A stretch of 64,000 nt of DNA, taken from assembly GCF_964340395.1 (NCBI RefSeq), contig NC_135563.1, positions 23,700,309 to 23,764,308 of the forward strand, written 5' to 3'. Positions 31,699-63,200 of this stretch are shown here, one piece after another. The notes below the pieces were generated by a model, which saw only the letters and a program-made list of their open reading frames with translations, was not told the DNA's origin and searched no databases. Both the position numbers and the translations under genes were made by a program. Source of the stretch: Glandiceps talaboti (taxonomy: Eukaryota > Hemichordata > Enteropneusta > Spengelidae). Numbering within the stretch: the first letter of the stretch is position 1; every line of letters starts with the position of its first letter.

Positions 31699-34600
31699 AC
31701 TGTATTTCCCTTCTATCACTCTTATGATCTCCCAAACTCACTCTCATAATCATTTTCAGACAAATCTCTGCCAAGTCAATATTTTTTATTGGATTCAAAT
31801 CTGTTTTCAGCCTTTAGTCACATAACGATCAGTACATTGATTAACACCAATAGGTTGTGACATCTATCATAGTTTGACAGACAACAACAATCTACTTACT
31901 AAGTTTGCCATCTGTCAGGGTGAAATACCTCAGGCTCAGGAAATACTTTGGGGTCCCTGTGAGCTGCATATGTAATGTAAACTGCTGCGTAGTCCTTAGG
32001 TATCTTAATTCCATCTATTATACAGTCCTGATGCAAACAAAAATGAATGTTAACATTTTGTAATATTTGTATAATTTTACTGTGTATGTATTTGACAAGA
32101 GATCTGTACAGTAATTAAGGGGAATTGCAGAGTAGGAATAAAGCCTTTCTTTTTAATTACATGCAGTTAGTCCTGTTAGTGTTTAAACAATTTTCATTCA
32201 CTGTGTAGAGCTCTCAGCAACAGTTAATTTCATCAACCCATAGTGAAGTAAATATTACATACATCCAACATCACAATAATTGACAGCCAACCTCATCTGA
32301 AAATGAAGACATGGCCCAAAAATGGGGTCAGGACTTTATGCCCAAGGTGGAATGATTGATGTACCTACCAAACCTTCCCTATCACTACTGTGGGAGGAAA
32401 CCCCAGGGAATTGGTGTACCTACCAAACCTTCCCTATCATTACTGTGGGAGGAGACCCCAGGGAATTGGTTGCTGACATTTACACTACCTGGGGCTAGAG
32501 GTTGTGGCCCTCTTTTGGGTCAGGGCCTCTTTCCCAGATGACAATAGCTGTCAGTCATCAAAATATTGATGAAGATATTGGTTGACGGAATGAACTCTGA
32601 CTGAGTCCTGTCAGCCAGTTTTATTATTTGTTTCTTGGATGTCATGCATAATAATAATACAGTAACAAGAGTCCCACTTAAAGTTGTTAGATTTACTTGA
32701 GATATCACAGCATGCACTGTCACCTGGGAGTCACCTTTTGACCTTACAGAATTTCAGCAAAAGATCTGGGGAACTTACTGGGTGTTTTTAAAGAAAGTGG
32801 GAAAGTAATACAACAGTCACAGCAGCTTGTGAGCTATTCAGTCTGTCAAGACTGACTAGTAGATAAGATGACAGTATTCTGACGAACGAGGCACATCCAC
32901 TTAGATATTTAACGACAAATGAATTGACATAAGTAGTAGACTGATACTGTCTGCAATCTGTACAAAATCGCTATGCTAAAAATTAAATTCTTTAACTTGC
33001 TATTTGTTTCTTTTTGATATAAGTTGTAGTTTAGAAGAAGTGGCATATTTAATCCAGATGTCTTCTTAGTCCTCCCGAGGGGGAACTGTTACAGTGGGCT
33101 CCATCTGTCAGTGGTGCATGTGTGCATCCATTCATAAATCCGTTAAGGGGGGGGGGGGATTATTATAGTGGGCTCCATCTGTCAGTGGTGCATGTGTGCA
33201 TCCATTCATCAATCAATTAAGGGTGGGGGGAACTATTACAGTGGGCTCCATCTGTCAGTGGTGCATGTGTGCATCCAATCATCACTTCGGTAAGGGGGGA
33301 GGGAACTATTACAGTGGGCTCCATCTGTCAGTGGTGCATGTGTGCATCCATTCATCAATCTGCTAAGGGGTCTGTGTTTCCTATAAAGACTTAAACTTGT
33401 CTTTCAGTCTGAATACATCTTTTTATGAATACTTCCACTTCATTTTTTTGGCAATATATTGTGGGTTTTTTATATTCCTGTTTTTATTCTACAGGATACA
33501 TGTTAACAATCAACAGTAACTTAAATGGTCAATCTAACATCCAACAGTAACTTAAATGGTCAATCTAACATCCAACAGTAACTTAAAAATGGTCAATCTA
33601 ACATTCAAAAGGAACTGAAATTAGCAACTGAACATTCAATAGTAACTTGAGTTGTTAATTTAACATTCAACAGTAACTTAAATGGTCAATTTAACATTCA
33701 ACAGTAACTTAAATGGTCAATTTAACATTCAAAAGAAATGTAAATATATTGAGATGTCATATGCTGACAAATGGTACATTGTACTCTATGGTATTAACAA
33801 CCTAGTGGCTTAGGGGTATTGCACAAAAAGGCATTTAGATTTTACAAAATGAAGATCTCAAAATGGGTCTCATCAAATGGTGATAGTGTGATCAACAATG
33901 ACTTATGATCCAATATGTCAACTGATTGGTTTAGTGCTGTTACAAAATAGTAATCATCATTTATTAGCTTTCATAATGACAGCTCGCTTACTCAGATTTT
34001 AGTGTCACACTTCGTGTTAACGTGTGTGTATAAGGACACATAACACTGATGTCTAGTTAGACACTAAGGGGTGCATCTACATCTTGGTGGGTACAGACAT
34101 TGAATTACTAGTATATCACTGTGTTTGATACTCACTGCTATCTGAGAAGCCATGAATAGGTGCATTCTGTAGAATGTACATGGCGACATTGCATTCTGAA
34201 TATTATATTACGTGTTATAGGTTATAGTAATAAATAAAATAAAACATTCCAGGAGGGTTTTTTTTTGAAGAATACAACAAACTATAATCTGTGTCTGAAT
34301 ACAAACCTAGACAGTGTTTTTGTCAAGGGCGGTAAGCAGGTAAAATCTACCAGGGTTCCTAATCATTTTACCAAGGTTCCCAAACAAAATTATGGTAGAT
34401 TGTATGGGAAACTATGCAACTTTTACCTCTTTCCCCTTGCTGTTACCGGGGTTCCACAGCATTAGCAAAAACACTGCTACAAGTTTAATTAATTTACCTT
34501 TTTTTAAAAATTAAATTGATGCAATAACTGGCTAACTAGAAGAACTGCTTTGAGTTGGCTAAGTTATGTGCTCTACCAAATGACCCCTAGCTTTCAAAGT

Positions 34601-37600
34601 GTTTTGTCCTTTACCATAGTTTCAAGAACAAAACTTGGCTGCATCCATATAGCACTCCTAGAGGTCAAGATATATTATCTTTTGTTTTTTATAACTAGAA
34701 TATTGTGTCAAATGATGACAAACTCAACAGGTAGCATAGAGGCAACTAAACATTTTATCTGAATAGACATGAGTGTTGTATTGTCATCATAACAACTCAC
34801 AAATTCATAATGTGTGCTTCAGTAACCTATATATGATAAACTTTAACTCAATATATATCTAAAAAAATACTCCAAGTCCAAACTTAAAATCTGTCAGCTT
34901 GACATTCGACTACAAAAATAGATATGTTTGGCTCAAAATTGAAACGGCAAATTTCTAGTCTGTTGAGGCAGACTGCTGCTAAAAAAGGTTTGGCCTCTAG
35001 AGGACATACTTCAGAGATGAGAACTGTTTGTGAACGAACTCAAAATCAAACAGAACTTGGTTGGAATTTTTCACCTTATGAATAATCAATGTACATACCT
35101 GAGTTGCTAGACGTCTCCCTCCAAGAAAAGGTGGCCATAATCTTTGCACTTCAAGCAATACTTGGTGTAAATATCTTTGACTTTCACTAGCTTTCTGTTT
35201 ATGATGTTCCTGTTAAAGTGAAAAGCATTATGCATTAGATTGTAATTCATAACTGTGTCAGCACTCTTGAGAACCTAAAATTTATGTAGTTCAATATGAC
35301 ATGCTACTGTTAATCTAATAAACAAGTTGCATACTACCAAACCACAGTAACAACAGAATTTCAATTAGGCAGAACAATATTTTACGTCCCATACAAGGTA
35401 TTTTATACATACAAAATACAGACACTGATAGCACACAAGCATATAAATTGATTTATTTTATCTCACTAGTGTGACTACAAATCAACTTCACGGTCAGTCT
35501 GCAGTGTCAGATGAAACAAGGAAGATTCAAAGACAAAACTGATTTTTTGTGTTCACAGTGAGATAAAAAGTTACTTTTCATGAGCAGTGCACTATCAGTG
35601 CCTGTATTTCCTTGGTGTAATTTGTAACAAAAAATGTTGAGATGTAAAAATTTCATCAGAGCTCCTAATTGAAACTCTATACTCTCTCTGGTTTGGTAGG
35701 AAAAAGGTCAATTTAGTGCAATGTACATGTATTGTATTTGTGTCATCCTAATGCCAATGACAATACCTAGGTAGTCCCACAAATTTTGTTATCAAATTGC
35801 CAGTTTTGCCTGTAAATGTGATGCTAGAAATCTCACAGTTACTACTAGTGATGGTTTGCCAGTAAATGGAGTGATGCTAGAAATCTCACAGTTACTACTA
35901 GTGATAGTTTGCCTGTAAATGTGATGCTAGAAATCTCACAGTTACTACTAGTGATAGTTTGCCTGTAAATGGAGTGATGCTAGAAATGTGAGTAAAACAT
36001 GTCTCTTGAGTGAAACACCATGGCATCTTCATTTCTCCTCTAGATGGTTTAAAATATGATACTACAGACTTCACTGTTACAAGTGATAATTAATAGGTTC
36101 CATGATAATTACATTTTCTGGTTGCGCCATCAGAATAGTAAATGAAGTAAGAAGTGATGCTATCGCCTTGGGAACCAGTGCAGAGATGAAGAGTAGTGCA
36201 TGATGGGCTGCTTCTGCTGTGTCTTTGAAACCAGCTGTCCTTATTTGATGGAGAAATTCACCATCTTTTGATGCTGACAGTTTCTTGTAAATAATGTCAA
36301 ACAAAGCTTTCTGGGAAGACAAAAATACAAACAATATCTGAAATAAAATGTGTTTTGTTAAGATCATACACTCAATAGATTTGATTTATCTCAAGGTACA
36401 AATAAACACCCTAAAACCCTTTCAATTCCTTTTGATGATGGTCCAAAAATACACCATGTTCCAGTCTGATGAAACCCAAAAGGATGTACCGGTACATTTT
36501 GGACACTAGGAGTGCTATTTCAACAAGGAAGTGAGAGCAACAGTAAGTTCAGCAGTGTAGGCCTCATTTGAAAAATCTCTCCATTTCCCAGTGTTTCAAA
36601 GCTATTAAAGTCAATGGCATTGTCATTCAGTCTCAAATATTTCTGCTTATATTTTAAGGGGATGTAATGTTTTGGAACTCAGAGAGGTAGCTTTGGGTGT
36701 GTTATAGCCTGCTTCTTGTATCGCCATGTGGTTGGCAGTGTGCCTACTGGGTACTAACAAAAACACAATTTTCTGTTGCTGTGGGTCAAAATGATAAAAA
36801 CTGAGTTTTCTTATGAGCACCATATAACAAAGGATAGGGCAATGTCAAATTTTGTTGTCATAAGTGACTGCTTTGTGTCAGTGGAGTGTCAAATTGGTTT
36901 AGAAGGCATACTGGTGGTTGGGATCCATCATCCACACAGATTTACCCCTTATTTTCCTGAATCATGGATGCCCTCTTTCAGCACTTCTTTCAAAATGGCT
37001 AAATGACTAGTACACATGTGCGTCCTATATACTATGCGATGTTTTTGGGTGGTTTTACCCAAGCATGCATTGCAGCACAATGACTACGCATGTGCATTCT
37101 ATATACTATGTGCATTTTCCACATGGAGGGTGCTATCTACAATATCATCGTGAGGCAGCCGGTCACAAATTAATCAACCCGGCGCAAGCTTATGGGCTTT
37201 GCCTAGTTATGATATTAGCACTTGTGAAGTGCCATATATCCCAAAAGTTCATAGGCACTGAACACTATAGTGTATTGTAATATGATTCGGAAGGACAACC
37301 ATATTATACTTACTTTAGCACCAACTGCTTTTTTGTATCCTGATGACCAGTATGGCACTTTCATACTAAAAGGTACAGAGATAATACCTGGAAGGACAGA
37401 GATGAAAATCAAGGCTTTGAAATCTACTTTAGTTAGTAAGTGATCAATGTGGATCACCAGTTTTAGACTTTGGTGACCCAAAGCATGATGTTGTGTAGTC
37501 AATATTTTAGTCACTACAGTCTATTAATGTTAGACTCAATTTTATCTGTCATTTTGTCTCCATGTCTATTTATTTTATCTTGGAGAAATCTTAACATTTT

Positions 37601-40600
37601 CCAAAATATAAATCCTTGCAACTACTAGCTCTCTCAGTAAAATAGAACCTGATGAATCTCAGTAATATTAATATTCATACTCAAATACATTTTTGAACCA
37701 CTGCTTAATTTTGTGATCCACTTTTGGACCACTACAACTGCAAATTGTATTTGGTGATCCAAAATGAAAATCCAGTGGTCAGTGGCCTCAAAACAATTGC
37801 TAAATTCAAGTCACAAAATATACATAAAAATGGCTAAAATTGCTCTCTATATTTGTAGAAGTAGTGGTTATCCTATAACAGTGGAATGCTGGTTACCCAA
37901 CACCAATTAGTTGAATTTCAGATTTTCTGATCTCATTTCTATGGTCCCATTAATTTCTAGTGAATTGTTGTCATCATGTGCAAATGTTGTGTTGATAAAT
38001 TTCAGAACTCCCTGCCACTGAGGGCTCACTTTTGACTACATTCAGTGTAGACATACAAATACACAATAGTATCACACTGAAACTTATTAAGAAGGTACAA
38101 TGTATATGAAACAAAAATACACACATCAATGACCAGAAAGTTGCAGGTTGGGCTCTGGTTAATGTTTTTTATACAATGCAGTAGCACCTTATTTGGAAAT
38201 TGGAGAACAATTTGCTCAGTGATTGACACTATAACCATTAGTGCATGCTTTCATAACATTCACCTTGGACTATATATCACTATTTGGTACTAACTTACCA
38301 TGCCAATGAGTTGTAGTGAGTTGTATGATCTGATGAGTTAACTCAGTTGACTCTTCAACATCTAAACCCAGAAATATACTGAGTGACAATTCTGTTGCAA
38401 ACTGTTTGAAGACTTTGTACATGGGCAGGGCAGTACTGGAGCTGCAATATAAGAAAATGTTGAAAAATGTATGTTTTATGCATCCCACATTCTGCCTACA
38501 TTCCAAGGTAAATGTGTCATTTTTTCTAGCCAGACAGTACCATTGACTTTGTGCATTCACCTTTCAATCACCAGGCCTATAGTCATCCTCAAAATAATAT
38601 AACAGAACCCAATGAATATGAGAATATTGTATGTGTGGCATACTTGGGGAATTTACACATTCAAGTGTTTGTGATGTTCTCAGAAGTCATACTTTTATTA
38701 TAAGACACAAATACCCATTAAGTGTCCACATCAGCACTCAATATGTGGGCTCATGTGATTTTATGTACATGTATGTTAAATGCTTGTGTACTCATACATA
38801 TGTAAGTATGATTTAGGTACCACTCTGCAGTGTAAATACAAATAACATATGTATACACCAATGCCCGTAATCAATGGACAGGTTAGATTGAAAGATTGGT
38901 CACTGTGGGGGCACTCTTCTCATCCCTGATAAGGACATCCCCCAATGATGTATTTTACCATCTATGGACAGGTACATTATGTGATAATAGGTATCTTTTT
39001 AAAGAATAAACTATAAACTACGCTAACTGGTCAAAGCACACAGGAGTCCTATCATCTACTCCCGTATCTGAAGTTTCAATAAGAAATATGTATATCTGGC
39101 TAAGAATTATTTTGAGTGATGGGACATGCATTGTATGTATCGGCATGGTTGCAACCTTAGTCCACCAATGTTGGTGGAGGGTCTATGGTCCAATATGATA
39201 ACCTTTCTCATAGTTTAGATCAATGTATTTCAAAGATAGCCTTATATGGTAATGATAGCCTTATATGGTAATGATACATCTATTTCAGACACCATCTTTA
39301 GTCATATCATGTAAGACAGTGGTGAGTGCATTTCATTGTCTTCTACACAGTTCTCAATACATTTGAGATATCTAAGTATATTCATATGGTACATTGGTAA
39401 ACACACTTCACTATGGTTGGTGTATATCTGAAATAACCTGATATAATGTATTGAAATAGGGATACAAAGTTGGTCAACACAGATTTCAAAGACACCTAAT
39501 GGTAAGTTAGTAACCTTTTTTCAAAAATGACCTGCAACAGTGAGTATGTCACATAACCTTCTAGAGTTGTCTACACAAATCAGACATATAGTCGATTCAT
39601 ATGGTATATTGGCAACACTTTCCAGAGATACTAAGTGTATTTCAGAAATGACAGGAGATTGTACTTGAACTTCGAAGGTAATGGTCAACACATTTCAGAG
39701 ATAATTTCAGAAATGATCTAATATTGTGTATGGCCTTCTAAAGTACTTGTCAACAAACTGCATTAATACTTGTCAGATCATGTGAAGTGTATTTCAGAAA
39801 CAACCATCTACTACAGTAATAGACGTAATAGTTCAAACACATTGCTAACGTAGTACTAACAGAAATACATTGCATAAATAGAAGGAGAAAGTTGTTATAT
39901 TTGCATATTCACCTTGAACATAAGTGGTCAAAGTTTCTGTTAATTAACTTGCCAATCAGACCATCCCAGTTTTTCACAGCCTCACCACAAAACAAATTCT
40001 GTAAAACTTTCCGTATTCTATGTGCTTCCTCATGACCAGTAAATAACAAATTATCGCCATAGAGACTGTACATAAACACTCTATAACCCATGTCAAAGCA
40101 CTGACTTTTTTCTGAAATAAATTACAAATGTTTTTCAGTTAACAGCAGAAATTGGAACAATTATGACATGTGATATATATAAATATATGAATGACATGAT
40201 ATAATAATGTGATATATGATGCAATATGTCAATATGATGTAATGTGATATGATGCACATGACGTTGTATCATATCATATCATATGATGTGGTGTGGTGTG
40301 ATGATTTATGATATAATATATATGACACGACATGTGCCATTGTGATCTCATCAACAACAAACAAAAGTGTATAAAACATTTTTTTAAAAGGCTTTTTAAA
40401 TTTGGGCATCTTCAACATGTGTATAGAAGAAGAAACATATAAAATTACTGGGAGATAATTACGTGTAAGCTCAAATACTGGTAGAAGTTTAGACAAAATT
40501 TTGTGATGTTTTTATTGAATTTGTTTTCAATTGGGAAAATAGTGCATAATAGAAATATCTTCTATAAAAAAGAATGACTTACCATGCAGAAGTTGATGTA

Positions 40601-40772
40601 CACCTTGACATGAAGCAATAAAAACAGTGGGTGTATTGATAACACGGGACTGAAATATCCTCTCAGAGTAGTCATTAATTCTTCTATTAACAAATTCTAT
40701 TGGGTCCTTATAAAATTCAATTGATTTGTCTCCAACCACTGGATAGCCTATATGGCCTTTAGGTGCTGCCAT
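28262..40772 (-). CDS. Soluble cytochrome P450, CYP120/CYP26-like, 433 aa
   Basis: Haem-thiolate enzyme; substrate unknown. Coding exons in transcription order: 40772-40583, 40111-39913, 38441-38299, 37387-37314, 36310-36113, 35209-35099, 32027-31900, 29904-29817, 28432-28262. All have AG/GT borders, phases join, and the total is exactly 434 codons including TGA. It starts MAAPKGHIGYPVVGDKS, directly with the proline-rich P450 beginning, so there is no membrane anchor (animal microsomal P450s are about 500 aa). Visible landmarks are helix C (GHEEAHRIRKVL), K-helix EVQR in LLEVQRLWPPFLGGRR, the PEPEVFHPDRW block, and the haem loop YGGGPRDCVG (Tyr for the usual Phe). The C-terminal YTWKLPDDQDLT and RPKEQV resemble CYP120. 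The I-helix (HHALLFISALVPKAIASLL) lacks the usual acid-threonine pair. An in-frame 5' UTR acceptor lies at 40881. Family call is by eye. Confidence 0.9.
28615..29225. repeat. Alternating repeat of about 58 bp in P450 intron 8
   Basis: About ten units, each containing GAAACCCAGGCCTT and AACTG/AATTGATAAGATAAC. Two flavours alternate: CTAATGTGAGAACCTGG and CTATTGCAAGCACCTGAG. This makes a higher-order repeat of about 115 bp. Confidence 0.9.
29226..29816. other. P450 intron 8 remainder
   Basis: Unique intron sequence. A reverse open frame of 163 aa (29083-29574) overlaps the repeat array and is not supported. No mobile element could be bounded. Confidence 0.4.
29905..31899. other. P450 intron 7 with CTGT/TCTA microsatellites
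   Basis: Contains degenerate CTGT/TCTC sequence from 31000, then (TCTA)n at 31545-31572 and (CTGT)n at 31577-31698. A repeated phrase GACATATATCACTTTCTGACA lies near 31236-31300. Nothing coding was seen. Confidence 0.7.
32028..35098. other. P450 intron 6 with several minisatellites
   Basis: Holds a 60-bp near-duplication around 32358-32468 (TACCTACCAAACCTTCCCTA). Four copies of a unit of about 74 bp lie at 33080-33370 (CAGTGGGCTCCATCTGTCAG) with G-runs, and about seven copies of a 31-bp unit at 33500-33735 (CAACAGTAACTTAAATGGTC). No exon found between the flanking P450 exons. Confidence 0.8.
35815..35992. repeat. 55-60 bp tandem repeat in P450 intron 5
   Basis: Three to four copies of a unit containing GATGCTAGAAATCTCACAGT and TACTACTAGTGATAGTTTGC, about 120 bases from P450 exon 5. 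Confidence 0.9.
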
Positions 40773-40881
40773 TATATTTTGAAATTGTAACCAAGTCTAC
40801 AGAGCTTGGAATGATGTCTAGATCAATAAATTAGCACACAACTTCTGATGCTCCAGTCTCAAAATTGTCTCTTTGAAGCTC
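40583..40881 (-). other. First coding exon of P450 with 5' UTR part
   Basis: On the - strand the sequence CTTTTTCAG followed by GAGCTTC places an acceptor so that the exon starts at 40881. This gives a 109-nt 5' UTR segment before the ATG at 40772-40770. A plausible upstream non-coding exon ends at a TGATCAG/GTGCGT donor at 42994, in the CpG-richer divergent promoter region; a second candidate donor (CTCAG/GTAAGT) lies near 41956. Which one is used cannot be decided from sequence. Confidence 0.5.
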
Positions 40882-41628: not shown

Positions 41629-42600
41629 TAAGTACCGTAATTCAGTCATACACACTGCAAATAGAGAATTACATTACTAGAATTCTAGTTTAATTACTTT
41701 GCAAAATACACTGTATGTAGCAGGTGTTAAATTTACCATTCTCCTTTTTGTTTTTTTTGTTACCATTATTTTGTAATCATTTATACGCTTGGGTAAATAA
41801 ACCACTTATTAATATCACAAAAGAGTTGTGAGATCAATTAAAATGTCAATGGAAAACCATTAAACCCAGTTAATACATTTACTATTAGTGTCAATGCCAG
41901 CATAAATGATAAGAAGAATTTAGATAGACAATATATATCATACAATGAAACTTACCTGAGTGTGTAATATGAGTAATGTGTGAGAGTCAAAGGCAATTTA
42001 ATTAGGGCATTGAAAAAATGCAAAACTCATTGTAAGACACAATTTTTGTACATGCAACATTATTTGCTTTACAAAGGGCAGTGAGTTTTTCAAATAACTT
42101 CCCTGATATATGTACATTTTGCTTCTATTTGCAACTAATAAATTTATTGCATATCAGCACACAAAATTCAGAACACTAGTATTAAAAAATATACACTGAT
42201 AAATTGTTAATAATCTTATAGCAAATTTTAGGCCATCCCAATTATCACAGAAAGGAATAAGTATGAATATATTACATTATAATATCCACCAGTCAATTTC
42301 CACAGTTACCAATCTTGTAGTCCTGCTTGCATACGGAATAAGTTGTGTGAAATGCATGCACCGTCAGCAAGCAGGACTCAGTTTAATAGACTGTATTATG
42401 TATCATCAGTGCAAAAAAAAAACTGAATTGTAAAATGTTAATGAATAATGCTAACTACAAATCATTTATGTCATATTGTAATTATTAATATTATTATAAT
42501 GTCAGACGGATAGATAGATATGAAAGCATTATATGTACAAGTTCGATGAGTACCCAAGACATAAAATTGATACTGATTGAACTAGCCAAATTTTGACCAC

Positions 42601-42711
42601 AGGTACTCGAATCAATCTGTATGATTTAAAAAAAAAATATGTATGGTAAATAAATCTTATTTACCATACATATTTTTTTTTTAAAAATCATACAGATTGA
42701 TTCGAGGACCT
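42601..42711. repeat. 111-bp hairpin with A-run arms
   Basis: Left arm 42601-42652 contains CTCGAATCAATCTGTATGAT, an A-run and TATGTATGGTAAATA; the right arm 42658-42711 is its reverse complement with one mismatch and a small indel. It sits in the P450 upstream region, about 40 bases from the next inverted-repeat element. Confidence 0.88.
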
Positions 42712-42748
42712 GTGACTTTAATAGACAGTATAAAATGCATGTTGACCG

Positions 42749-42895
42749 TTAGCTCTGGATATATATGCTACGAAGTTCGACACGTCTTCCCTCTCCGACG
42801 TGTCGAACCTCGTAGCATATACATCCAGAGCTAGTTGACTCTTGGAGGGGAGAAGACTTGTCGAAACCTCGTAAGCGTACACATCCAGAACTAGT
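42749..42895. mobile_element. TAGCTCTGG-family inverted-repeat element (copy 2) plus half copy
   Basis: 42749-42835 is a near-perfect hairpin from TAGCTCTGGATATATATGCT to ACATCCAGAGCTAG, with inner arms TTCGACACGTC/GACGTGTCGAA. A further right-arm copy (TCGAAACCTCGTAAGCGTAC through ACATCCAGAACTAG) follows at 42858-42895. It is related to 13846-13945. Confidence 0.8.
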
Positions 42896-42993
42896 TCGTA
42901 GTTGCTTTGACCATAGACAGTCTATGGTTTGACGACTTGTTCACGTGCATGTATGTTCTGACAAAAATGAATTCATTTTGTAAGTGTACGCAC

Positions 42994-43497
42994 CTGATCA
43001 CTAAGGACAGCTCCGGTATCGTTGATTTCCTGTTGCAGTCGAACAGCTGAGCATGACTCGATATTATCCAGTATGGACTTTTTGTTGTGGGTAGGGCCGA
43101 GAGGTTGCCGAAATGAGGGCTAGGGGTCAGAGATGATTAATTACGCTTTCGCTTCCTGTTATTATGTTTTACTTGTCAAGACTTGACTTTGACACTCTGT
43201 GACTCCGTACGTGTTCATTTGATATCATTCATAAATGGCGCTAGGTGTCGGCATTTGGCATACATAATACACAATCTTCCTCTATATTTCCTAAATCTTG
43301 AGGGACAATTGTGAATTACTTTTACCGTTCAATTCAGCAATAAACCGATGGTACTCGAGCTCCCACACGGCTGCTGAATGAACGTCTTCGTCTCCCGTCC
43401 ATAGCAATAACTGAACGACAGTTTTGATTGGACAATGGCTCGATCAGTTTGTTAGAAGCAATTTGATTGGTAAAGATAGGAATCCCGCCAAATTTCC
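42994..43497. promoter_or_regulatory. Divergent promoter region of P450 and UNG with CCAAT and E2F-like sites
   Basis: Two inverted CCAAT boxes (GATTGG) at 43426-43431 and 43465-43470. TCCCGCCAAA at 43483-43492, the complement of the E2F consensus TTTGGCGGGA, lies only 6 bases before the first UNG ATG. The region is richer in CpG than its surroundings. E2F control of UNG is known in mammals. Transcription start sites are not visible, so if the first ATG is used the E2F site must lie at or within a very short 5' leader. Confidence 0.6.
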
Positions 43498-46400
43498 ATG
43501 CTTTCCCGTGTTGTCAATAGTATTGTCACCCGATCTGCTGCATTTCCGAGGGTGTTGTTAACAACACTGCCATCTCATCGGGTAGACAGATACACATCAC
43601 AGATCACAATGATTGGACAGAGCAAAATATCGGCATTCTTCAGTCCTAAAACTACACCGAAGAGGTCACTGTCTGATAAAAAGAGGGACGCAGACAACTC
43701 CGACGAACAGGTAGACCTTTACAGTAATACTACTAGTAGTAGTAGTACATAACAGGAAGTAATAGTGGCTAGTGGGAAATACTTACTCGATGTCACATTG
43801 AATGTGTACATGACGTGAATCAGATTGTGTACATAACATGCACAAACAATAATATGTAAATATCATATGCCTTTGATTCAATCAATGTGTCATTCATTCA
43901 TTCATTCAACTGTCATACTTGTTTCATGCTTTGACATATTCATAATCAAAATTTCATAAATTCAAAACAACCAGTTTTCATAAATATGGTGATACTGATA
44001 TGCATTTACGTTTTTGATATTGAAGACAGTTACCAATACATGTAGCTGATAGGTAGGCACACAGGGGCGTGTAATATTGCATAGATTGTTGTTTTCCAGG
44101 TCTACAGACTAAATATAACAACCTTTTGAATATATATTCCTACCTGTATAGGGAAAGAGAGAAGGGAAGACACGATTGTCGACCCTGTATGAACTCCTCT
44201 GTACGTCTAGCTATTTTGAATAACCCGCTCGTTGCCGATTGGCTGCTCGAACTACGCCTACGTAAAAAAGACCCCCTAGCTTACCTGAAGATTAGACGCA
44301 TAGCTACAGTAAGGAATGACTTCCGCGTTCGAAACAAAAAGGGATTGTTTCATCAAATTTACCGTATTTCGACCCAAAACGTATTCATGGTTTATACAAA
44401 TCTTTTTGGCGATTTATGGTGGACCGAGTCAGCCTAAATATATTTCTCTCTCTGGAAACGAAATGTCTACGGAAGCGTATTAGTGCCAAGTTGTAAGGAA
44501 AAAAATAAAATTTCAAGTAAAATCTCGTAATACGAGATTTCAATTCTCGTAATTACGACTTTTTTCTCGTAATTACGAGTTTTCAATTATCGTAATTACG
44601 AGTTTTCAATTCTCGTAATTACGACTTTTCGATTCTCGTAATTACGACTTTTTTCTCGTAATTACGATTCTCGTAATTACGACTTTTCTATTCTCGTATT
44701 TACGAGAATCGTATAGCGTAAAGACATTTTGATTCTCGTAATTACGAAGCAATTCTCCGGTAAGTTGATATCTAACTGGGAAAATCACACTGCCATTTTA
44801 AGTATATAAGCAACAGCTGAGTTCTCAACAACACCCGATCATCGGGTAGTAAGTACATTTAAGGTGAACTGAACACTCTAATATAAGTCCAGTGAAATTA
44901 CATAACACCTATAGGTTAAAAAAAGAAATGGCAATGAAATAACGTGTTCACATATGTACACACATATACTGGATGCAACAAGAAGTTAGTAGGTTCACTG
45001 CAATGTTTAAACAGGCAATCTGTCAATGAACTTAGCCAAATAATAAACACAAAACAAGAATTCCAGAAGAACAACAAGAATTCTTCATCAGCAAAGAATT
45101 TGTTCAAATAATGGAGTCCAATATTAAACATATAGATGTTCTTCTGAAATTCGGACACAACTCCAACTTATATCCAATGATGAAGATGTAGGGAAACTGT
45201 CCAATACAAGACAGGATTACGACTGATGAAGGACCTAACGGCCGGTCCGAAACGTCTTAAAAGAAGGATCAATAAAGTTTCTATCTGGGGAGTCTCGCCA
45301 ATGTCTTCCTACTAACACCCTGATATACCAGGGTCAATAACCTCGACAAACCGGTCACTTGGCTAACTGACCCTCATCCATACCAAATACATATATTCAA
45401 GTATTTATCAACCGTGGAAAAGGTCTCCACACATTTTCAAACTTGATCGAACGACCTACGGTGCCACGTTATTGAATTTTAAATTTCAAAACCGTATAAA
45501 TCTGATTTACCTTAATGAAGAAAATTCTAAACTAAAGTTGTGAATTTTACCAAATATCAGATGGTAAATACTATTTTCTTCAATTTCAAATCCATTATTG
45601 ATTCATTTTGCCGACATATAATGAAAGAATATTCTTCGCTGTTTTAATGCACTCGATTTTTTTTTAAAGAAACGAAAAACGCAATCAAATCATACAAACC
45701 GTTTACCGTGTCAAACACTCTATAGTGCATCTGCTTAGTACATCAAAATCATAAGATTCAAGGCGTGTCTGAACAATTCAAAAATTCAAAAATAACAAAC
45801 AATAAAAAATCATAATTTCATAATTACGACAATCAAAAAGTCGTAATTACGAGAATCGTAAAGTCGTAAATACGAGAATAGAAAAGTCGTAATTACGAGA
45901 ATCAAAAAGTCGTAATTACGAGAATCGAAAAGTCGTAATTACGAGAATCGAAAAGTCGTAATTACGAGAATCAAAAAGTCGTAATTACGAGAATCGAAAA
46001 GTCGTAATTACGAGAAAAAAGTGGTAATTACGAGAATTGAAAAGTCGTAATTACGAGAAAAAAGTCGTAATTACGAGAATTGAAATCTCGTAATTACGAG
46101 ATTTTAAATTTTATTTTTTTCCTTACAACTTGGCACTAATACGCTTCCATAAGTGTCAGATTCACAGTCACATGTGAGCTAATATTCCATTCCACCATTT
46201 CCAGGATGGTGATATTCTAGTCTAATATGGCTGTCGACAATAAGACCTTCAAATCCCCCGGAAGCATCACTACTTTATGGGCCACCAAAAATGAAATTAA
46301 TTTCAGTATACACAGATTCACAGTTTGACATAGTAAAAATGCATTTGTATTGGAAATCGTATAAGTATACTCAACAGGAAGCTGTCGTAAACTTTTCGAG

Positions 46401-49400
46401 ATCCATGGTTCCGGGTTTAGTGATGGCCGTGCTTCTAATTTTGAAATGTAGCGGTAATCTGACGTCATTAGTCAACGCCTCTTTCTTGGCCAATCAGCAG
46501 TGAACATTAGACGGCTATGTCATTTGACCTGCCTTTGACATACAGAGGACTTTATACAGCGCCCGCTCATTGTAAAAGGTCTATTTTTATCGTTACAAAA
46601 GCATTTTTGCCCCCCAGTGATAGTGTATAAGTTTACTTGGCACATATTCTTCATGCAGGTATGTTTTTGTTGCAAATGTGCATGTTTTATTCAAATTTGA
46701 AAGGTTACGAAGAAAGATGACCCGGAAGATGACCACCCTTCTCATATTTATAGTATACGTAGTACTATAGATCGATACATTTGTAGCAGCAAGATTCGTA
46801 TGATATTTTCCTAAGAAAACGGAAATCTAAGCAATAATACACGCCCCTGTGGGTAGGCACTACTCCATGTGGAATTTTAAAAGTGTTTTTTTTTTTTGTA
46901 TATAATTTTAATCAGTTACTGAGTTAGTTGCCCAGCGGCGGGTGCATAATATAATTTTTGACACTATTCACCCAGTCATCAATCAGCCAGTGAAACCACT
47001 GCTTGAAAAGTAAATGTTCCAGGACCAATCAAATACCATCTTTTATAAATAGACATGCAAGTTCAATTAATGAATGTGTTTACCATGTTTTTACATTGCA
47101 TCCATCACAGTGGTGTGACTGCTACAGCTGTTTACTCCATATATAAACGTGTCAATGTCACACTTGTGATTGGTCATTTAGGGGGAGGGGAAGGTTTTTT
47201 GGCCTAAACGAATGAAGTTCTTTTGAGCCTGTGTGACACTGATTGTCCCTAAGTTTATTGAAAACAAAGCGTAGGGTAATAATGACTTAAAAGTATAGTA
47301 ATCATCCTAAAACTGACCAATTCCATTTGTAGACAACACCAAGTAAGAAACTTAAAGCAGATGACATTGTCACAGTCACGCCAAGTAAAGCAGATGACAC
47401 AGCCAGTAGTTTGTCACCCGAACAGAAAAAGATGATAGAAGTGAAGAAACAAGAAGCACTAGTCAAACTACAAGCCAAGCAATTACCTAATACTCCAGAT
47501 CATATGGGAATAACATGGAAGAAGGCTTTGATGACAGAATTTTCAAAAGACTATTTTCAAAAGGTAAGACATATATTTTGCTTGGGAAAATGGAAATTAG
47601 ATAAATGAATAGCTCATATTAGAATAAAAAATGTTAATACATTGACTGTACTAATTTGACTGAACTAGTACAATTAATATAAAATATAATCCTCTTCAGG
47701 GCACTTCATAATTTCTTGCTTGAATTAATTAATTATTTCCCATGATAGCTGCAGCAGTTTGTTGAGAAAGAAAGGCGTTCCCAGACCATCTATCCACCAG
47801 CTCACCAAGTCTACTCATGGACAAACACTTGTGAAATACGAGAGGTAGGTTTACAAGTTGCTGCACTTAGTAGCACTCTGCTTATGAATAGTAAGTCTTT
47901 ATAGATGCAGCTAGATATATTGGGTTACTACCTAGGCTATACCAGCAATTGTTGATGGTCAGAGTGCTTCTTATGATAGCCAAATTATGATAAAAACTGG
48001 CATTTCTTGTGAGTCACCACATAGTAAGAGATAGGGGAACACCAAATTTTGGTGCTTCAATAGAAATTGTGTGTCAGTGGAGCATCAAATTGGCTTAGGG
48101 AGCACACTGTTGATTGTCGATCTCAGTATGCAGTCGTGTTGTCTACGTACACTGTACCTTCTTTGTGAGGAAGAAAACAAATTTTTCTTACTCTTACATT
48201 AGTACGTTTACTTGTATGTATTTTATTCAACAAAAAGTTGAAATCTAAATCTGATGTAAGCATAGCATTAACAAAGCAGAATTGTTAGTGTCATGAGGTC
48301 AAATCCCAGCAGAAACTAGCCCACTAGATAGGCTGAGCATCACATTTTCAGAAAAACTTGGCATCTCCTAATACAGTCAAGCCTAAAGAATGCAACAAGC
48401 CATGTAGACAGCTTTGTTTCTTTGCAAGGAATATTTGGTTTGACAAATGACCATAAACATCAACTTCAAGTTCATACACAGTGTAAAGATGCAACCCATA
48501 CTAACTAGGTACAAAGTATTAACAATGCAAGTCATATCAATCAAGTTATGAAACAGAGTGAAACATATTCTTTATTTGCGGCCCACGCCTTTGGAATGCC
48601 CTGCCACCATGTCTTCGTTCTTCACATACTTTGAACAGTTTTAAATCTGCATTGAAATATCATCTTTTTAGATCTCATTATTATTAATTTTTAACTTTTT
48701 TACATTTCTGTTTTTTAAATGTCATTCCGTGTCTTTGTATTTTTATCCTGTTTCATATTTTGTTTTTACTTGTGTATATGTACATTTTAAAATACTTTTA
48801 TACTTTTGTTCAGCGCATTGAGATTGTTTTTAATGTAATGCGCTTTATAAGAAATAAATATTATTATTATTATTATATACTTAGTCTTTTCATCAAATCT
48901 TTGTACCAACTTTGACATTTGCTATGTTCAATTCTTGGTCAGTGATATGCAAGAAATAGCTTGATTAAAACTTGGAGACCTACAATTTATAAGATTGAAG
49001 AATTTACACTTTTTCATGGAATAGTGAATTTATATTTTCATGTTTTAGGTAAAGGTGGTTATTCTTGGGCAAGATCCTTACCATGGAACAGGACAAGCAC
49101 ATGGTAAGTTAACTTTCCCCTACTACACCACACAGCACATGGTAAGTTAACTTACCCCTACTATACCACACATCTGAACGGATACTTACATAGTTATATG
49201 TAATATCATGTGTTACATGAGTCCTTGATGTAGTGTAAGTTTATCCTTAATGAGATGCAGAGACAAATATCATTGCATTGTAATTTGACATTGTGTAAAT
49301 CCTGCATATAGACTCACTGTTTGAAATTAAATTAAGTAATACTCTGAAGTGGAACTATAAAATGTTCATGATTACAGGACAGCTAACTATTTCTTCTTTT

Positions 49401-51899
49401 CTGTTTCATTGTCATTATAGGTCTGTGCTTCAGTGTTCAAAGAGGTATAAAACCTCCCCCAAGGTATGCAAAACTATTATTTGGTAATTGTGAACAGCAG
49501 CAAACTGAATCCTTCAAAATACAAAATCATTTAATCACATGGTCAAATGATGCTGGCTGATGGGTGTGGCATGACATGTCTTGTCTTACAGACTAAGCAA
49601 TGACTTGCCAGGGGGAATACAGCAGATATCTCATCTGTCATCTGTGATAATATCAATAAAGTACTACAAGTGGAGCAATGACTTGCCAGGGGTTAATAAG
49701 TAGATATATCATCTGTGATAATATTTTTAAAGTACTACAGTTTAGTTTTAGTTTAGTTTATTTCAGTAAAACAACAAGATTGACATTACAGATATACAAA
49801 TAAAAACTGGTACAAATTGTTGAATTACTTGGATAACCCACAAAGTCAAAGACTTGTTTCCAGTGGGGTGCATACAGTGATTCAAGAAAGTGTCGGGAAA
49901 AGCAAAGTTGTTTTAACTACATGAAATAGGAAAGAATAACAGAAGTAGGGAAAACGTGGAGGCAAACCAACTAATACCGAATAAACTCGCTGTTTTCTGT
50001 ATCTCTTATTGTACTGAACAGATACGATTTAGTTGAGTGCTTTTTTTTATAGGCATTTCTTTGTGATATCTGTTTTATTGATGCTGGTAGATTGTTCCAG
50101 TCCTTAATGGCGTTAGCATAAAATGTATTAGTCGCCTGACCTTTAACCGTTTGCTGATGAAAATTGTACCAACTAGTACCATAATTATGAACAGAAGACA
50201 CTTTGGTAAACTGATGAGATAAATACTCAGGGCTGGAGTTATTGTATATTTTGAAAGCATGGTTAAGCCGTAGCTGGCTCACTCTACCCTTGACATCCAG
50301 CATACCCAGGGCATCAAACTGATCAGCACCTATGTGTGATCTTGGCTCCATGGGAAGGATGAACTACAATTTTGATATCAATTTTGAAAGTACTACAAGT
50401 GGAGAAAGTGATCTCAATATATGCATTGATGGTTATCCATGTATGATTGCACATCACGCTATGGCTTTGAAATAACATAATGTACAATTTTTTACAGTTT
50501 GCAAAACATGTTTAAAGAACTTGGCACTGACATTGAAGGTTTCAAACATCCGGGACACGGCTATTTAGATGGCTGGGCTAAACAAGGTATGAAATTGTCA
50601 TGGAATTTTACAAATGAAAATAGGTAATGTTTTCCAAAGAATTTTATTTTTTTCTGAAAATTATGCATATAAAACGCTTGACTGATGCACTACTTACTTT
50701 TTCAACTAACTATATTACATTTTCGGACACCTGCAATGCAAATTACAATTTCTGCCACTGATAAATTAAAATAAGAATATGTCTGCTATTGACAAGGAGT
50801 GAGAAGTTAGTGAGTGATCCTATGAATGAGTGCCCCACTACTGGCATTTTTACATGAGAATCAGATTTAAAAGGTACAAACACTCATATTTTGGCAATAA
50901 CATTATTATCACACACATTGAGTGAAAGTTTATGTGTATGATGAATATTGAATATTGAAATTATGATTGTCATCTGGTACATAGATTATCAAAATATGAG
51001 AGTATTGTAGGAAAAGAACAATTTTGACAAGGTGATTCCTTTCTCTATAAATTGCTGATGGGCAATGTAAGTTGCAGTGGAAAGGCAAGTATCCTGAATG
51101 ATCCTATGTGAACCAATAGCAAGACAGTGTGTGTATACTGAGGCATGTAGTGAAATAGACAAAAGCAAAGACCCAGATAACTTTATATTTTACAAGTGAA
51201 CATGTTTTGTTGTAGGTGTGTTGTTGTTGAACGCTGTTCTGACAGTCAGAGCCAGTCAGGCTAACTCACACAAAGATAAAGGTTGGGAGAAGTTCACTGA
51301 TTCTGTTATCAGCTGGCTGAACAAGAACTTGCATGGAGTAGTCTTTCTATTATGGGGGTCATATGCACAGAAGAAGGGTGCCATTATTGATAAGGTGAGA
51401 CAAGTTGAATACTACTATGGAAATCAAGCTGTAGGCAAACTGACAAAGACTTGTAGTATGTTGATATCAGCTATCAATGGATGTTGATATAATTACACTC
51501 ACAATAGTGCGGTGTTTCTGAAAGCAAGTTTTCATCAAGAGCCCATACATTCAGCCTTATTCAAAGTGTTTACACTATCTTATTACAGGGTGATTATATC
51601 TACATAGCCAAGGCATGGTTATCACTTATTTGTCAAACTACTACAAAATACGTAGTCTTCACCCATAGTAGTGCTAGCCACATACAGATGTACATGGACA
51701 TACGGTATAACTCCACAACTTGTATTTTGTTTTTGTGTTTTTACAGAAGAAACACCACATCCTGAAAGCTGTACATCCCTCACCGTTATCAGCTCACAGG
51801 GGATTCTTTGGATGTAAACACTTTTCTAAGGCAAATGAACTCCTCAAGAAGGAAGGAAAGAAACCTATTGACTGGAAACATCTCCCACTGGATGACTAA
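43498..51899 (+). CDS. UNG: Uracil-DNA glycosylase (mitochondrial/nuclear), about 352 aa
   Basis: Removes uracil from DNA as the first step of base excision repair. Coding exons: 43498-43710, 47333-47563, 47749-47844, 49049-49103, 49421-49463, 50498-50586, 51216-51394, 51747-51899; borders AG/GT, phases join. Residues 1-37 are Arg/Ser/Leu-rich with a single acid, like a mitochondrial leader. Met38 begins [13 protein letters not shown], matching the nuclear-isoform start, with the PCNA box QSKISAFF at 41-48. A disordered Lys-rich linker follows, then the catalytic domain: water-activating GQDPYHG, uracil-pocket [36 protein letters not shown], and the minor-groove loop [14 protein letters not shown] with the catalytic His. 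The protein ends [11 protein letters not shown]. All catalytic residues are intact. Introns hold three mobile-element insertions. No obvious AATAAA precedes the 55-bp array downstream. Confidence 0.97.
44471..46148. mobile_element. Nested element with CGTAATTACG-array terminal inverted repeats
   Basis: Outer ends are GGAAGCGTATTAGTGCCAAG at 44471 and its complement ending at 46148, followed by TTGTAAGGAAAAAAATAAAA. Inside each end lies a cluster of the 10-bp palindrome CGTAATTACG spaced by 7-13 bases of A/T-rich linker. There are 8 exact copies at 44521-44756 and about 10 exact plus 3 variant copies at 45820-46105, mirrored. The core between them (44760-45815) contains a retroelement-like segment with a hammerhead-like motif. 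No transposase; superfamily not recognised. Confidence 0.78.
45223..45253 (+). ncRNA. Hammerhead-like motif (incomplete evidence)
   Basis: CTGATGA (45223-45229), one extra A, a 5-bp stem GGACC/GGTCC with an 8-base loop, then GAAAC (45249-45253). The layout matches stem II and the catalytic core of hammerhead ribozymes. However, the extra A after CTGATGA is atypical and no convincing stem III with a cleavage triplet was found. It may be a decayed Penelope-like retroelement tail. Function is not claimed. Confidence 0.35.
46860..47332. other. UNG intron 1, distal part
   Basis: Unique sequence between the hAT-like element and UNG exon 2. Nothing recognised. Confidence 0.5.
48570..48880 (+). mobile_element. 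5'-truncated L2/CR1-like LINE 3' end in UNG intron 3
   Basis: A short frame reads [11 protein letters not shown], then [13 protein letters not shown], ending in a stop near 48684; this is the typical C-terminus of ORF2 in L2/CR1 LINEs. It is followed by a 3' UTR ending GCGCTTTATAAGAAATAAAT and an (ATT)n tail at about 48856-48877, also characteristic. The upstream boundary is uncertain. It is a dead-on-arrival copy in sense orientation with UNG. Confidence 0.8.
49098..49175 (+). repeat. 38-bp tandem duplication including the UNG exon 4 donor
   Basis: The unit CACATGGTAAGTTAACTT, then CCCCTACTACACCACACA, occurs at 49098-49135 and again from 49136 with two substitutions. The first copy carries the true end of exon 4 (CATG at 49100-49103 then GTAAGT). 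The second copy reproduces the last exon bases and the donor exactly, preceded by an acceptor-like CACAG. Confidence 0.95.
49740..50386 (-). mobile_element. 5'-truncated LINE in UNG intron 5
   Basis: The reverse-strand frame 50351-49971 reads as a LINE ORF2 C-terminus: [17 protein letters not shown], then [15 protein letters not shown] and [19 protein letters not shown], ending in a Lys/Arg-rich tail. A 3' UTR and a TAAAC-rich tail follow at 49740-49760. The 11-bp repeat AAAGTACTACA flanks it (49729-49739 and 50387-50397), a clear target-site duplication. It is inserted antisense to UNG. Confidence 0.85.
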
Positions 51900-57212: not shown

Positions 57213-60200
57213 CTAAATACATAGAGCACCAAGACCTGCAGCTGATGCTGTTGCTGAAAGCATATTGGCTACCTGGCTGGTTTCCAACAGCAACACAGCT
57301 TCCTTCAGCCAATCATCTGCTACCTTCCTTGGCATGCCTTGGAGTTGATTTACATACCGTACAGCCTGATCTAAATCTCCTTGCCTTATATGGTAATCTG
57401 CAAATGCTAGTAACTTAAATGTATCTAAACTTGATGGATCTATTTGTGCATCACTTGGTGGTGGTGTATCAATGATTAGAAAGGACTGGAAGTATGACAG
57501 AAAGTACTGAAATAAACTACTTCCTACTTCATCTACCATAGCAACCCTTTTACATAGTTTTTTGATGTGCTTCCATCTTGATGTAAGTATTTCTTCTGTT
57601 ACAACTCCCCTCTTTATGGCCTCTTCTGGCATAGCATCAATAAGTCCATTGATGACTGGGAAAGTCTCTCCGGCTTCTTTCACAGCACTAATTTCACTGG
57701 ATAGTGGTTTTAGTTTGTCTTCATCAAAATAAGCACCTTCATTGCCTGAAAATAGACACAATACTACTGGTATAATACAGTACACTGTATATGGTTGGTT
57801 GTGGTAGCATGGTTATTTAACTCCTCAGGTATGTGGACACAATTATTGTGAATTTAACATTTTATAAATCATAGTTTCATTTAGACGGGTAGAAAGTAAA
57901 AATATGAATTTTGAAAATTTCTTGCAAATACTACCCACAAGTTCTTTGCTTACCATATGCAATCGTCCTCTTCAGACTTTCACATGCCAACCACAATTCC
58001 TGTGCTTTCTGTGAGTGTTTCTCTAAGTCTGCTCTTTCTGTGAAATAAATAAAATTATTGCAACATTGCTATCAATTGTCCATTATAGACACTGAGATAC
58101 ATCCACAAACAGTTTTGTACAATTAGTACATCATTTGAAATGAAGTCATGGGTTTTGGTTACCATCACCAAGTAACTTCTATGATCTACCACAAACAATG
58201 TCAGCAAGTTTGACAAACCTAAAGTTTCATGATAACAGGTACAAAGAAAGTCTTCGCTGTACAATGAAATAAAATAGATGTGAAACCTGGAGATACAATA
58301 TCTTTGAATTTATAATGAAGTCTTTACACCACACACACAAACAATTGGAGTAATGGATTTTAAAAGCTTGTGAGTAGCCTGTTTTGATATTTTGAAAAGA
58401 TAGGATATATTCACTGCTCTCAGGGTATTTGCTAGACTGTCAACAGTCGTCTTGACTTTTTTGTAATTTCTCTTTAATACTATTGTTGGCCCTGAAATTA
58501 ATAGAATTAAACATGGTGTGCGCAGGACGTCTTTTGAAATGACTGTTATGAGTGAGATTAAACTCCATAAAGGAACTTGTATCTCATTAATTCAGGGTTA
58601 TCTGACATGACATGTCATGACATGTTCTTTGAAAATGATTCATGTGGATAACCTGGAATATGATGTATTATGCAATTACCGTAACGTATGTTTGATTTAA
58701 GCAAAAAAATAAGAATTTGTACTTACCCTCTATTGCTGATTCTATACCTCGTAGTTTAGCCAGTGAACCATGAAGTTCAACTCTAGATCTCTCTCTCTCA
58801 TAACGTACAATTTCGGCTTCTTTTCTTTCATTCTCTTTCTCTAGTTCTTCAGCCTGGACTCTCAACACATCTTGGAGGTGATCACTATGTGCTGCAGCTT
58901 GTCTTCGTAACTGATGTCTCATGTCTTGTTCATAGTCATTCTTTACATCTGCTACCTGCAGTCAAAAAACAAACAGACAATTCCTGTTTACTGGCTAGGC
59001 ACATCATCAAAATACTGCTACTGCTACCTGCAGTCAAAAAACAAACAGACAATTCCCCGTTTACAGGCTAGTCACATCATCAAAATACTGCTACTGCTAT
59101 CTGCAGTCAAAAAACAAACAGACAATTCCTGTTTACTGGCTAGGCACATCATCAAAATACTGCTACTGCTATATGCAGTCAAAAAACAAAGAGACAATTC
59201 CCTGTTACCTGAATTAGAACATTACCAGCTACACGTTCATTACTTTAGGCGTACCTAAGGAAAAGTCAATCTTGTTCTATTTTGACCTGCTAGCATAGGG
59301 TAAATGCTATTACAGGTACCAGGAACTGAATGATTAGTTTCTCTATACTATACAATGAACATATGGTAAGATTTATAACCCAACGAAAGAGATAAGTGGA
59401 AAGTAGGTAAAAAATTTACATAAGAAATTCTAAGCTTATTAATTTTATGATTTTATATTCATGAGCAACATGATGACATTGCTAGTCTAAGTATTACTAG
59501 GGAAAGATCACTTTTGACAAGATAGCAGTCAACTAAAACTATACCAGTAATTATGACATGTTGATAGTAATCTGAGACTACCACTACACTAGTACCAGTG
59601 GGCACTAATATACATTGTACTCATACCATGGTTTAGTCTCTGGGAAGACCAAGCAGGATTTTTATTTTTGTATCGGCAGGCTTTCCACTAACTTTTCACC
59701 CAGGTGCTGAATGCAAATAAGAATTCTAGCAGCCAAGACAAGTAGCTGGCGAATAAAAGAAACTGATTTTGGAAAAACTGACAACACATTTTTACTGTTA
59801 AAATGTACACATTGTTTGTAGTTTGTATGGAAATGGTGTCAGCAGAGGATGATTTTTAGGTCTCAAAATAATTTCTCTTACTGTGGAGTGCTCCTTATGA
59901 TTTAAAATAATGACAGCCATTCCAAGGCCACATACATCTTCTAATCTCTTTATTTTCCCCTACACCTAAATATCCTAAATCACTGTATTTAACCAAAGCC
60001 CAAAGTAACGGCTAATGCTAACTGTAAGTAGTGAAAACTTTTGTCCCCCCCCCCCCCCCCCCCACCTAAATATCCCACATCACTGTATTTAACCAAAGCC
60101 CAAAGTAATGGCTAATACTAACTGTAAGTAGTGAAAACTTTTGAGATTAGCTTCTTAAATACCTTATTGTTTTAATTTGCTAGAGGAAGCCCAGACAAGT

Positions 60201-63200
60201 GTACAGGGATGAGTCACTGCCAAAGTTTACACTGCCTTGATGATGAAATGATTACATCAACATCACCAAGGCATTCCTATCACCTGTTTATGTAACCAAC
60301 TTCATATCACAATATAATAATTTTAGTTTGTGTCTGTCTAGTCTAAGCTTGGTGAAACTAAGTGACAGCAGTCACATTCTCTATTTAAAAATGTTTATTG
60401 AAAAAAGAAACGAATATCAGCCCTATGCACTCTTTTTAACTTGACCTACCATTCTTTGTTGTTTGACTGAGAATTCTCTCGCCTGTCTCTGCAATTCCCG
60501 TGAAATTTTGGACTCAGCTTCCCGTCTATCGTCCTCTCTCTGTTTTTCTAATGAAACACTGATTCGTTTTTGTTCCAAAGCTTGTTGCTCAGCAAGTTGT
60601 TTTTGAAGTTGTTCTATTCTGCGGTGTGCATGTCCAATCAGTGAATTCAACTCATCCTCAGTTAGTTTCTTACCTGCATGTAACAAACACATTACATTTT
60701 AGAAGACATTGAAAACACATACTAAACATTGCTTGTTGACAACATTTACAATTACCATAATGAACAGTGTCACTGTCCTTTGGCAATACTACCAGAGAAA
60801 TGGGTCACCACCAGGAGGGAAGTTGATGTTTGATAAGTACCATGTTGAACAACGTACTTCGGCAATACTACTTGAGAAATCACTTGGACAAGTGGGATGG
60901 TGTTTTTAAGAGTTAAAACAAAATAGACACATACAGTATTTTCAAATCTTACCTCTTTTACCCAACTTAACTTCAGGCATAATACTTTCAAGTTCCTTCT
61001 TGAATTGTTGCTTTCCTTTCTCAACCAAGTCATGGTATTCTCTCATAATCTTGAATTCACCCATGGCTGACTGAACCTGTAAATATCAATCAATCAATAA
61101 TATAGTTTTCACACAACACACAGTTCCCTCCATTTACTTATCACACAACACACAGTTCCCTCCATTTACTTATCACACAACACACAGTTCCCTCCATTTA
61201 CTTATCACACAACACACAGTTCCCTACATGTACTTCACACAACACACAGTTCCCTACATTTACTTATCACACAACACACAGTTCCCTCCATTTACTTATC
61301 ACACAACACACAGTTCCCTACATGTACTTCACACAACACACAGTTCCCTACATTTACTTATCACACAACACACAGTTCCCTACATTTACTTATCACACAA
61401 CACACAGTTCCCTACATGTACTTTACACAACACAGTTCCCTACATTTACTTATCACACAACACACAGTTCCCTACATGTACTTTACACAACACACAGTTC
61501 CCTACATTTACTTATCACACAACACACAGTTCCCTACATTTACTTATCACATAACACACAGTTCCCTACATGTACTTCACATAACACAGTTCCCTACATT
61601 TACTTATCACACAACACACAGTTCCCTACATTTACTTATCACACAATACACAGTTCCCTACATGTACTTTACACAATACACAGTTCCCTACATTTACTTA
61701 TCACATAACACACAGTTCCCTACATGTACTTATCACACTACACACAGTTCCCTACATGTACTTTACACAACACACAGTTCCCTACATTTACTTATCACAC
61801 AACACACAGTTCCCTACATGTACTTCACACAACACAGTTCCCCCCATTTACTTATCACACAACACACAGTTCCCTACATGTACTTCACACAACACACAGT
61901 TCCCTACATGTACTTCACACAACACACAGTTCCCTACATTTACTTATCACACAACACACAGTTCCCTACATTTACTTATCACACAACACACAGTTCCCCC
62001 CTACATTTACTTATCACACAATACACAGTTCCCTACATTTACTTATCACATAACATACAGTTCCCTACATTTACTTATCACATAACACACAGTTCCCTAC
62101 ATTTACTTATCACACAACACACAGTTCCCTACATTTACTTATCACACAATACACAGTTCCCTACATTTACTTATCACATAACACACAGTTCCCTACATTT
62201 ACTTATCACATAACACACAGTTCCCTACATTTACTTATCACATAACACACAGTGTCCTCCATTTACTTATCACACAATACACAGTTCCCTACATTTACTT
62301 ATCACACAACACACAGTTCCCTACATTTACTTATCACATAACACACAGTGTCCTCCATTTACTTATCACATAACACACAGTTCCCTACATTTACTTATCA
62401 CACAACACACAGTTCCCTACATTTACTTATCACACAACACACAGTTCCCTACATTTACTTATCACACAACACACAGTTCCCTACATTTACTTATCACATA
62501 ACACACAGTTCCCTACATGTACTTCACATAACACACAGTGTCCTCCATTTACTTATCACACAATACACAGTTCCCTACATTTACTTATCACATAACACAC
62601 AGTGTCCTCCATTTACTTATCACACTACACACAGTTCCTTCCATCTTAATACTTATGCGACTAACTGATGAAATTGAATTTTGTGCGTGAAATTTTGACA
62701 AACAGACAGACACTGACAAGGCCCATTGTAGTAGTTTCTATTTGGGAACTACCGATAATTATTTTAAAGCACCCTACCAAAGTTATGAGGCACAAAAATA
62801 CACATTTGGATCCATACACTATATCACTACCTTTATATTGGTGTTTGCACATTATAATCTAATGGTAATCCACCCAATATTAGAAAGTAAGATGACATCC
62901 AAATCCAAAGTCACACACACACACTTGTATTGGTTATGCTATCATAAAAATTTTATTACATCACATGAAGTGAACATTTAGATGCTGGGAAATGTATGAC
63001 TTTTGTAATAATGATTTCCGTTCAGATAGATTGTTAATTACTACAGAATCTTGCAAAATCATAATTTCTGACAAGGTATTACTTTTTCTCTCATACTGCT
63101 TATAGGTAATGTAATATTGACCCATGTGGTATGATGTTCCTATCTGAAACATTGGCAATATTGCATGTCAATATTGAACGTTAACTAACCTCTGCTACAG

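Follow-up and report, generated by a model that had tools for sequence, protein, structure and literature searches.

The UNG locus of Glandiceps talaboti raises the question of how one gene would supply both mitochondria and nucleus with uracil-DNA glycosylase when its first exon carries two in-frame start codons. In the window, by which we mean the whole 64,000-nucleotide stretch of DNA that was analyzed, UNG occupies positions 43498-51899 of the + strand as 8 exons with GT-AG at all introns and an intact frame of 352 codons. Exon 1 (43498..43710) ends in phase 0 at CAG/GTAGAC. Exon 2 (47333..47563) holds a stretch resembling the RPA-binding helix, recognized by alignment to what we take to be the human UNG2 sequence. 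These are followed by exon 3 (47749..47844), exon 4 (49049..49103) with the catalytic motif GQDPYHG, exon 5 (49421..49463), exon 6 (50498..50586), exon 7 (51216..51394), and exon 8 (51747..51899) with the HPSPLS motif and the stop codon. The assembled protein contains the UDG fold domain of family-1 uracil-DNA glycosylases (Pfam PF03167, 79 bits against a cut-off of 24.3), and both GQDPYHG and HPSPLS are intact; we take GQDPYH and HPSPLS to be the catalytic motifs of family 1. The interval 43498-51899 is the animal's UNG gene, and its exon 1 has two in-frame starts. A sequence search of the PDB with exon 1 and exon 2 as queries gave zero matches. In a 9-base donor match, the seven real donors of the gene score 6 to 8. 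A 38-bp tandem duplication at 49096-49172 copies the exon-4 donor (CACATG/GTAAGT) 38 bases downstream, and use of this second copy would shift the frame.

Exon 1 has the layout of an alternative-start gene, with a weak first AUG, an AUG-free gap, and a better second in-frame AUG. Its coordinates and letters were as the original prediction gave them, and 43498-43710 translates without a stop. The ATG at 43498 lies in a weak context, with T at -3 and C at +4, and the 36 codons that follow it are ATG-free in every frame. The second ATG, at 43609 (codon 38), has A at both -3 and +4. The part of the exon that follows the second ATG (43609..43710, + strand) encodes a UNG2-type N-terminus and a basic stretch. 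Directly after the start Met, at residue 4 of the short form, stands QSKISAFF, which fits Q..[ILMV]..[FYWH][FYW], presumably the pattern of a PCNA box. The residues from codon 38 align with the N-terminus of human UNG2, PCNA box included, as had been predicted, and for this reason the nuclear start is sound. For this alignment we took the human UNG2 start to be MIGQKTLYSFFSP and the longer stretch to be MIGQKTLYSFFSPSPARKR. RNA folding near the starts was ordinary (z of -1.06, -0.66 and 0.63), and an Rfam search of the window returned no match.

It is likely that the start is chosen within the single exon 1, and leaky scanning is probably the main means of choosing it. Initiation at the weak ATG 43498 would give a 352-aa protein with an Arg-rich leader that would take it to the mitochondria and be removed there. 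Ribosomes passing 43498 would initiate at ATG 43609; their product, a UNG2-type protein of 315 aa, would expose its PCNA box and be bound for the nucleus. A short 5' leader would add to the leakiness, perhaps together with transcripts beginning after the first ATG. We infer the leakiness, the use of both starts, and import into mitochondria and nucleus; the contexts of the starts, the ATG-free spacer, and the match of the second start to UNG2 with its PCNA box argue for leaky scanning, and the ordinary RNA structure near the starts counts against it. It is scarcely credible that the 352-aa form is the sole product, divided between mitochondria and nucleus by incomplete import. Mouse UNG1 does go to both places (PMC6651865), but such a scheme leaves unexplained a second ATG that stands exactly at the UNG2 start and in a better context.

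The weak first ATG opens a 37-codon leader (43498..43608, + strand) with 5 Arg, 1 Asp, and no Lys, and its description as Arg-rich and mitochondrial-type holds for this composition (5 Arg, 1 acid, no Lys). A possible R-10 processing site, R18-VLLTTLPSH with a cut after residue 27, was found with a pattern that we take to represent this motif. We compared the leader with two nulls. The 108-nt spacer was dinucleotide-shuffled 20,000 times; 28.2% of the results were open, 4.2% were ATG-free, and 1.1% were both. With the no-ATG condition set aside, 1.3% of the shuffles were open with at least 5 Lys or Arg and at most 1 Asp or Glu, and 0.12% were open with the charge, helical moment, and late first acid of the leader, the moment and late-acid thresholds being the observed leader values and hence post hoc. 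The second null was a set of 355 further ATG-led frames that stay open over 37 codons or more, drawn from 2,944 ATGs on both strands of the window after low-complexity frames were dropped. The charge filter was passed by 24 of the 355, three of these 24 also had the R-10 pattern, and none of the 355 combined charge, moment, and late acid. The rarity of shuffles both open and ATG-free, together with this 0/355, supports leaky scanning. On their own, the helical moment and the R-10 motif were non-significant, being reached or present in 20.5% and 21.0%, respectively, of shuffles of the leader's own residues, and this counts against it. The signal of the leader thus lies in its composition, its openness, and the absence of ATG; the motif gives no proof, and a mitochondrial leader is plausible.

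The same numbers bear on a rival reading, in which the gene makes the nuclear form only and the frame at 43498-43608, part of the promoter or the 5' untranslated region, is open by chance. Promoter elements adjoin 43498, and 28% of the spacer shuffles are open, which would suit such a reading. It nevertheless appears improbable: just 1.1% of the shuffles are both open and ATG-free, the composition is of mitochondrial type, and a mitochondrial UNG would have to come from a different gene or exon, and 42000-47330 contains no such candidate with a good donor.

A separate first exon of the mammalian kind was sought in the same interval. An in-frame TAG (47330..47332, + strand) lies directly before exon 2 and bars it from a mammal-style upstream extension, so that exon 2 lacks the open upstream frame from which mammalian UNG1 enters it. 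The original prediction had named a separate alternative first exon as what would speak against it; a mammal-style exon 1B is excluded at exon 2 by the TAG. We then scanned 42000-47330 for ATG-led, single-exon leaders that join exon 2 in phase. The scan gave 22 candidates with a donor of at least 5/9, six of them at 6/9, and none in 42000-47330 with a donor of at least 7/9. Exon 1 itself accounts for 4 of the 22 and for 2 of the 6. Of the remaining four at 6/9, one lies in the intron-1 repeat and encodes a leader with 3 acids, and the other three are nested and have only 2 basic residues apiece. Leaky scanning gains support from the TAG before exon 2 and from the lack of a first exon with a donor of at least 7/9; the evidence against it includes a candidate MTS-like leader in the intron-1 repeat (45226-45276), whose donor is poor (5/9).

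It is very unlikely that the mitochondrial form comes from a first exon of its own, or from splicing of the leader to exon 2 at a cryptic donor at 43581 with loss of the PCNA box. Mammals use a separate first exon (PMC6651865), and the cryptic phase-0 donor CGG/GTAGAC inside the leader (43579..43587, + strand) differs from the exon-1 donor CAG/GTAGAC by one of nine bases. Against a separate first exon stand the in-frame TAG and the acidic or basic-poor leaders of the other four candidates at 6/9. The cryptic donor is weak (5/9, compared with 6/9 for the exon-1 donor), and its use to splice the leader onto exon 2, dropping the PCNA box, is speculative.

The repeat in which some of these candidates lie (44052-46860, about 2.8 kb) makes up most of UNG intron 1. 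It has short inverted ends of 14 matching bases (44060-44073 with 46838-46851) and an apparent 9-bp target duplication, GGTAGGCAC, flanking it on both sides. A 23-bp unit, TCTCGTAATTACGACTTTTCAAT, is arrayed close to both ends, with the orientation reversed between them.

The sequence before exon 1 points to a second way of choosing between the same two starts. Two inverted CCAAT boxes (ATTGG) lie on the - strand at 43427..43431 and 43466..43470, 71 and 32 nt before the first ATG, and an E2F-type site, TCCCGCCAAA, lies on the + strand at 43483..43492, 6-15 nt before it. CCAAT or ATTGG occurs 109 times in the whole window, and each one alone is weak. The site at 43483-43492 is the sole match in 64 kb to each of three patterns that we take to describe E2F-type sites. 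CCAAT boxes usually stand some 60-100 nt before the transcription start. Given this usual spacing, the positions of the E2F-type site and the inverted CCAAT boxes suggest that transcription may start close to 43498, on either side of it. Human UNG has also been linked to E2F (PMC6651865).

From these positions it is possible, and we hold it tentatively, that transcription picks the start, with one promoter whose 5' ends are staggered around 43498. Transcripts beginning before 43498 would then give the mitochondrial form, and those beginning after it the nuclear form only. The sole E2F-type site of the 64 kb at -15 to -6, the inverted CCAAT boxes at -71 and -32, and the example of yeast CCA1, the TRNT1 homologue, which works in this manner (PMC12718117), speak for such staggering. 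Promoter patterns are not mapped 5' ends, however, and the weak context of 43498 would be needless if transcription alone decided. For leaky scanning, the E2F and CCAAT positions count as evidence against, because they suggest that part or even the majority of the transcripts may begin no earlier than the first ATG. The original prediction was right in its anatomy and in its mammalian contrast, but it had left staggered transcription starts unconsidered although the E2F and CCAAT signs point there. An upstream ORF of 6 codons in a strong context (ACAATGG; 43435..43455, + strand) is relevant only to transcripts beginning before 43435. Transcripts with 5' ends after 43435 and before 43498 would have a leader shorter than about 65 nt without an upstream ATG, which would favor leakiness. 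The route may thus be leaky scanning, staggered transcription starts, or both; all other readings, taken together, are unlikely. By eye, an imperfect inverted repeat, formed by GCTCTGGATATATATGCTACGAAGTTCGACACGTC and its complement, was also noticed at 42720-42900, upstream of the UNG promoter.

It is well known that alternative in-frame starts can give an enzyme both a nuclear and a mitochondrial form, and the UNG locus can be set beside several such enzymes. The exon 1/exon 2 junction falls at the human exon 1A/1B boundary in our alignment, in which some of the human letters and this boundary are as we presume them to be. In what we take to be the N-terminus of yeast Ung1, the order is alike, with a basic leader, an internal Met at 13, and a PCNA-box match, QTTIEDFF, at 21. 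The human and mouse UNG are the same enzyme, and their nuclear form likewise begins with MIGQ and a PCNA box. Mammalian UNG is unlike the present gene, with its one shared exon, in that transcription begins at two places and there are two first exons (PMC6651865 and PMC6511853). In human UNG the nuclear form uses exon 1, and UNG1 has its beginning within intron 1, from which it continues into exon 2 (PMC6651865); the exon names 1A and 1B are those of PMC6511853. The two transcription starts of human UNG bear out the mammalian contrast drawn in the original prediction (PMC6651865). UNG2 has 44 unique residues (PMC6651865), and mammalian UNG1 is described as without PCNA binding (PMC6511853).

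The closest likeness in layout is to TRNT1, which has a mitochondrial leader, a weak first AUG, and a downstream in-frame AUG (Met30 in human) that gives the nuclear/cytosolic form (PMC12718117). There, the mechanism is leaky scanning in vertebrate TRNT1 and an alternative transcription start in yeast CCA1 (PMC12718117). By analogy, this equal layout and mechanism in vertebrates speak for leaky scanning at UNG; TRNT1 and CCA1 are different enzymes, and their mechanism was tested by experiment. DNA ligase III of mammals and DNA ligase 1 of yeast and plants are repair enzymes whose nuclear and mitochondrial forms come from alternative translation starts in one gene (PMC6728418). The nuclear start of Lig3 is Met88 (PMC3107202), so that this other enzyme has a wider start spacing, 88 compared with 38. 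The class of nucleus/mitochondria dual location with alternative in-frame starts also includes GARS1 (PMC12718117) and ELAC2 (PMC3084753). UNG would join these enzymes as a new member, its mammalian version having solved the problem otherwise. In the literature searched, with most subscription papers outside reach, we found no report of two in-frame starts for animal UNG.

The 71-aa protein of exon 1 was also compared with other genomes. Against viral contigs, it gave 30 pattern matches, none of which was confirmed. Against contigs of prokaryote genomes, one match (39% over residues 8-54, E 8e-7) came out of 461 pattern matches. We rejected it as a chance match: it lies in G+C-rich, bacterial-looking DNA of a Spirochaetaceae bin, the likeness centers on RSAAFPRVL with a stop right behind it in that frame, and there is no MIGQ start in the three + frames. 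A family search of the animal's own genome (590 Mb, 47 contigs) gave 0 matches and also missed the exon-split UNG of the window itself.

Other genes are present in the window as well. Downstream of UNG, three frames at 57216-60698 on the - strand are exons of Mitofilin (MIC60; Pfam 156.7, 44.4 and 45.2 bits). A cytochrome P450 exon lies at 31902-32114 on the - strand (Pfam 45.6 bits), and frames at 35000-40796 on the same strand resemble further P450 exons and have no Pfam score when taken alone. Exons of a ligand-gated ion channel were also recognized by Pfam.

If both starts are used, several consequences would follow. The mitochondrial precursor contains the whole nuclear form and therefore includes the PCNA box, so that, unlike in mammals, the box would stay on the mitochondrial form if processing did not take it off; an R-10 cut after residue 27 would leave it on the mature enzyme. 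Precursor escaping import could also act in the nucleus. More tentatively still, one exon with two in-frame starts could be the old layout of UNG in animals, perhaps in opisthokonts, replaced later in mammals by a second promoter and exon 1B, with the mitochondrial form outside mammals carrying the PCNA box and the ratio of the forms placed under E2F cell-cycle control through the transcription start. Yeast Ung1, as described above, would share this layout. The idea is directly testable in public invertebrate genomes and transcriptomes. The balance between nuclear and mitochondrial uracil repair would be set at the choice of start, whether through translation, through the transcription start, or through both. 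The textbook example of two promoters that supply a nuclear and a mitochondrial form is UNG; should other animals rely on a pair of starts within one exon, the arrangement of mammals would be derived or one of several solutions.
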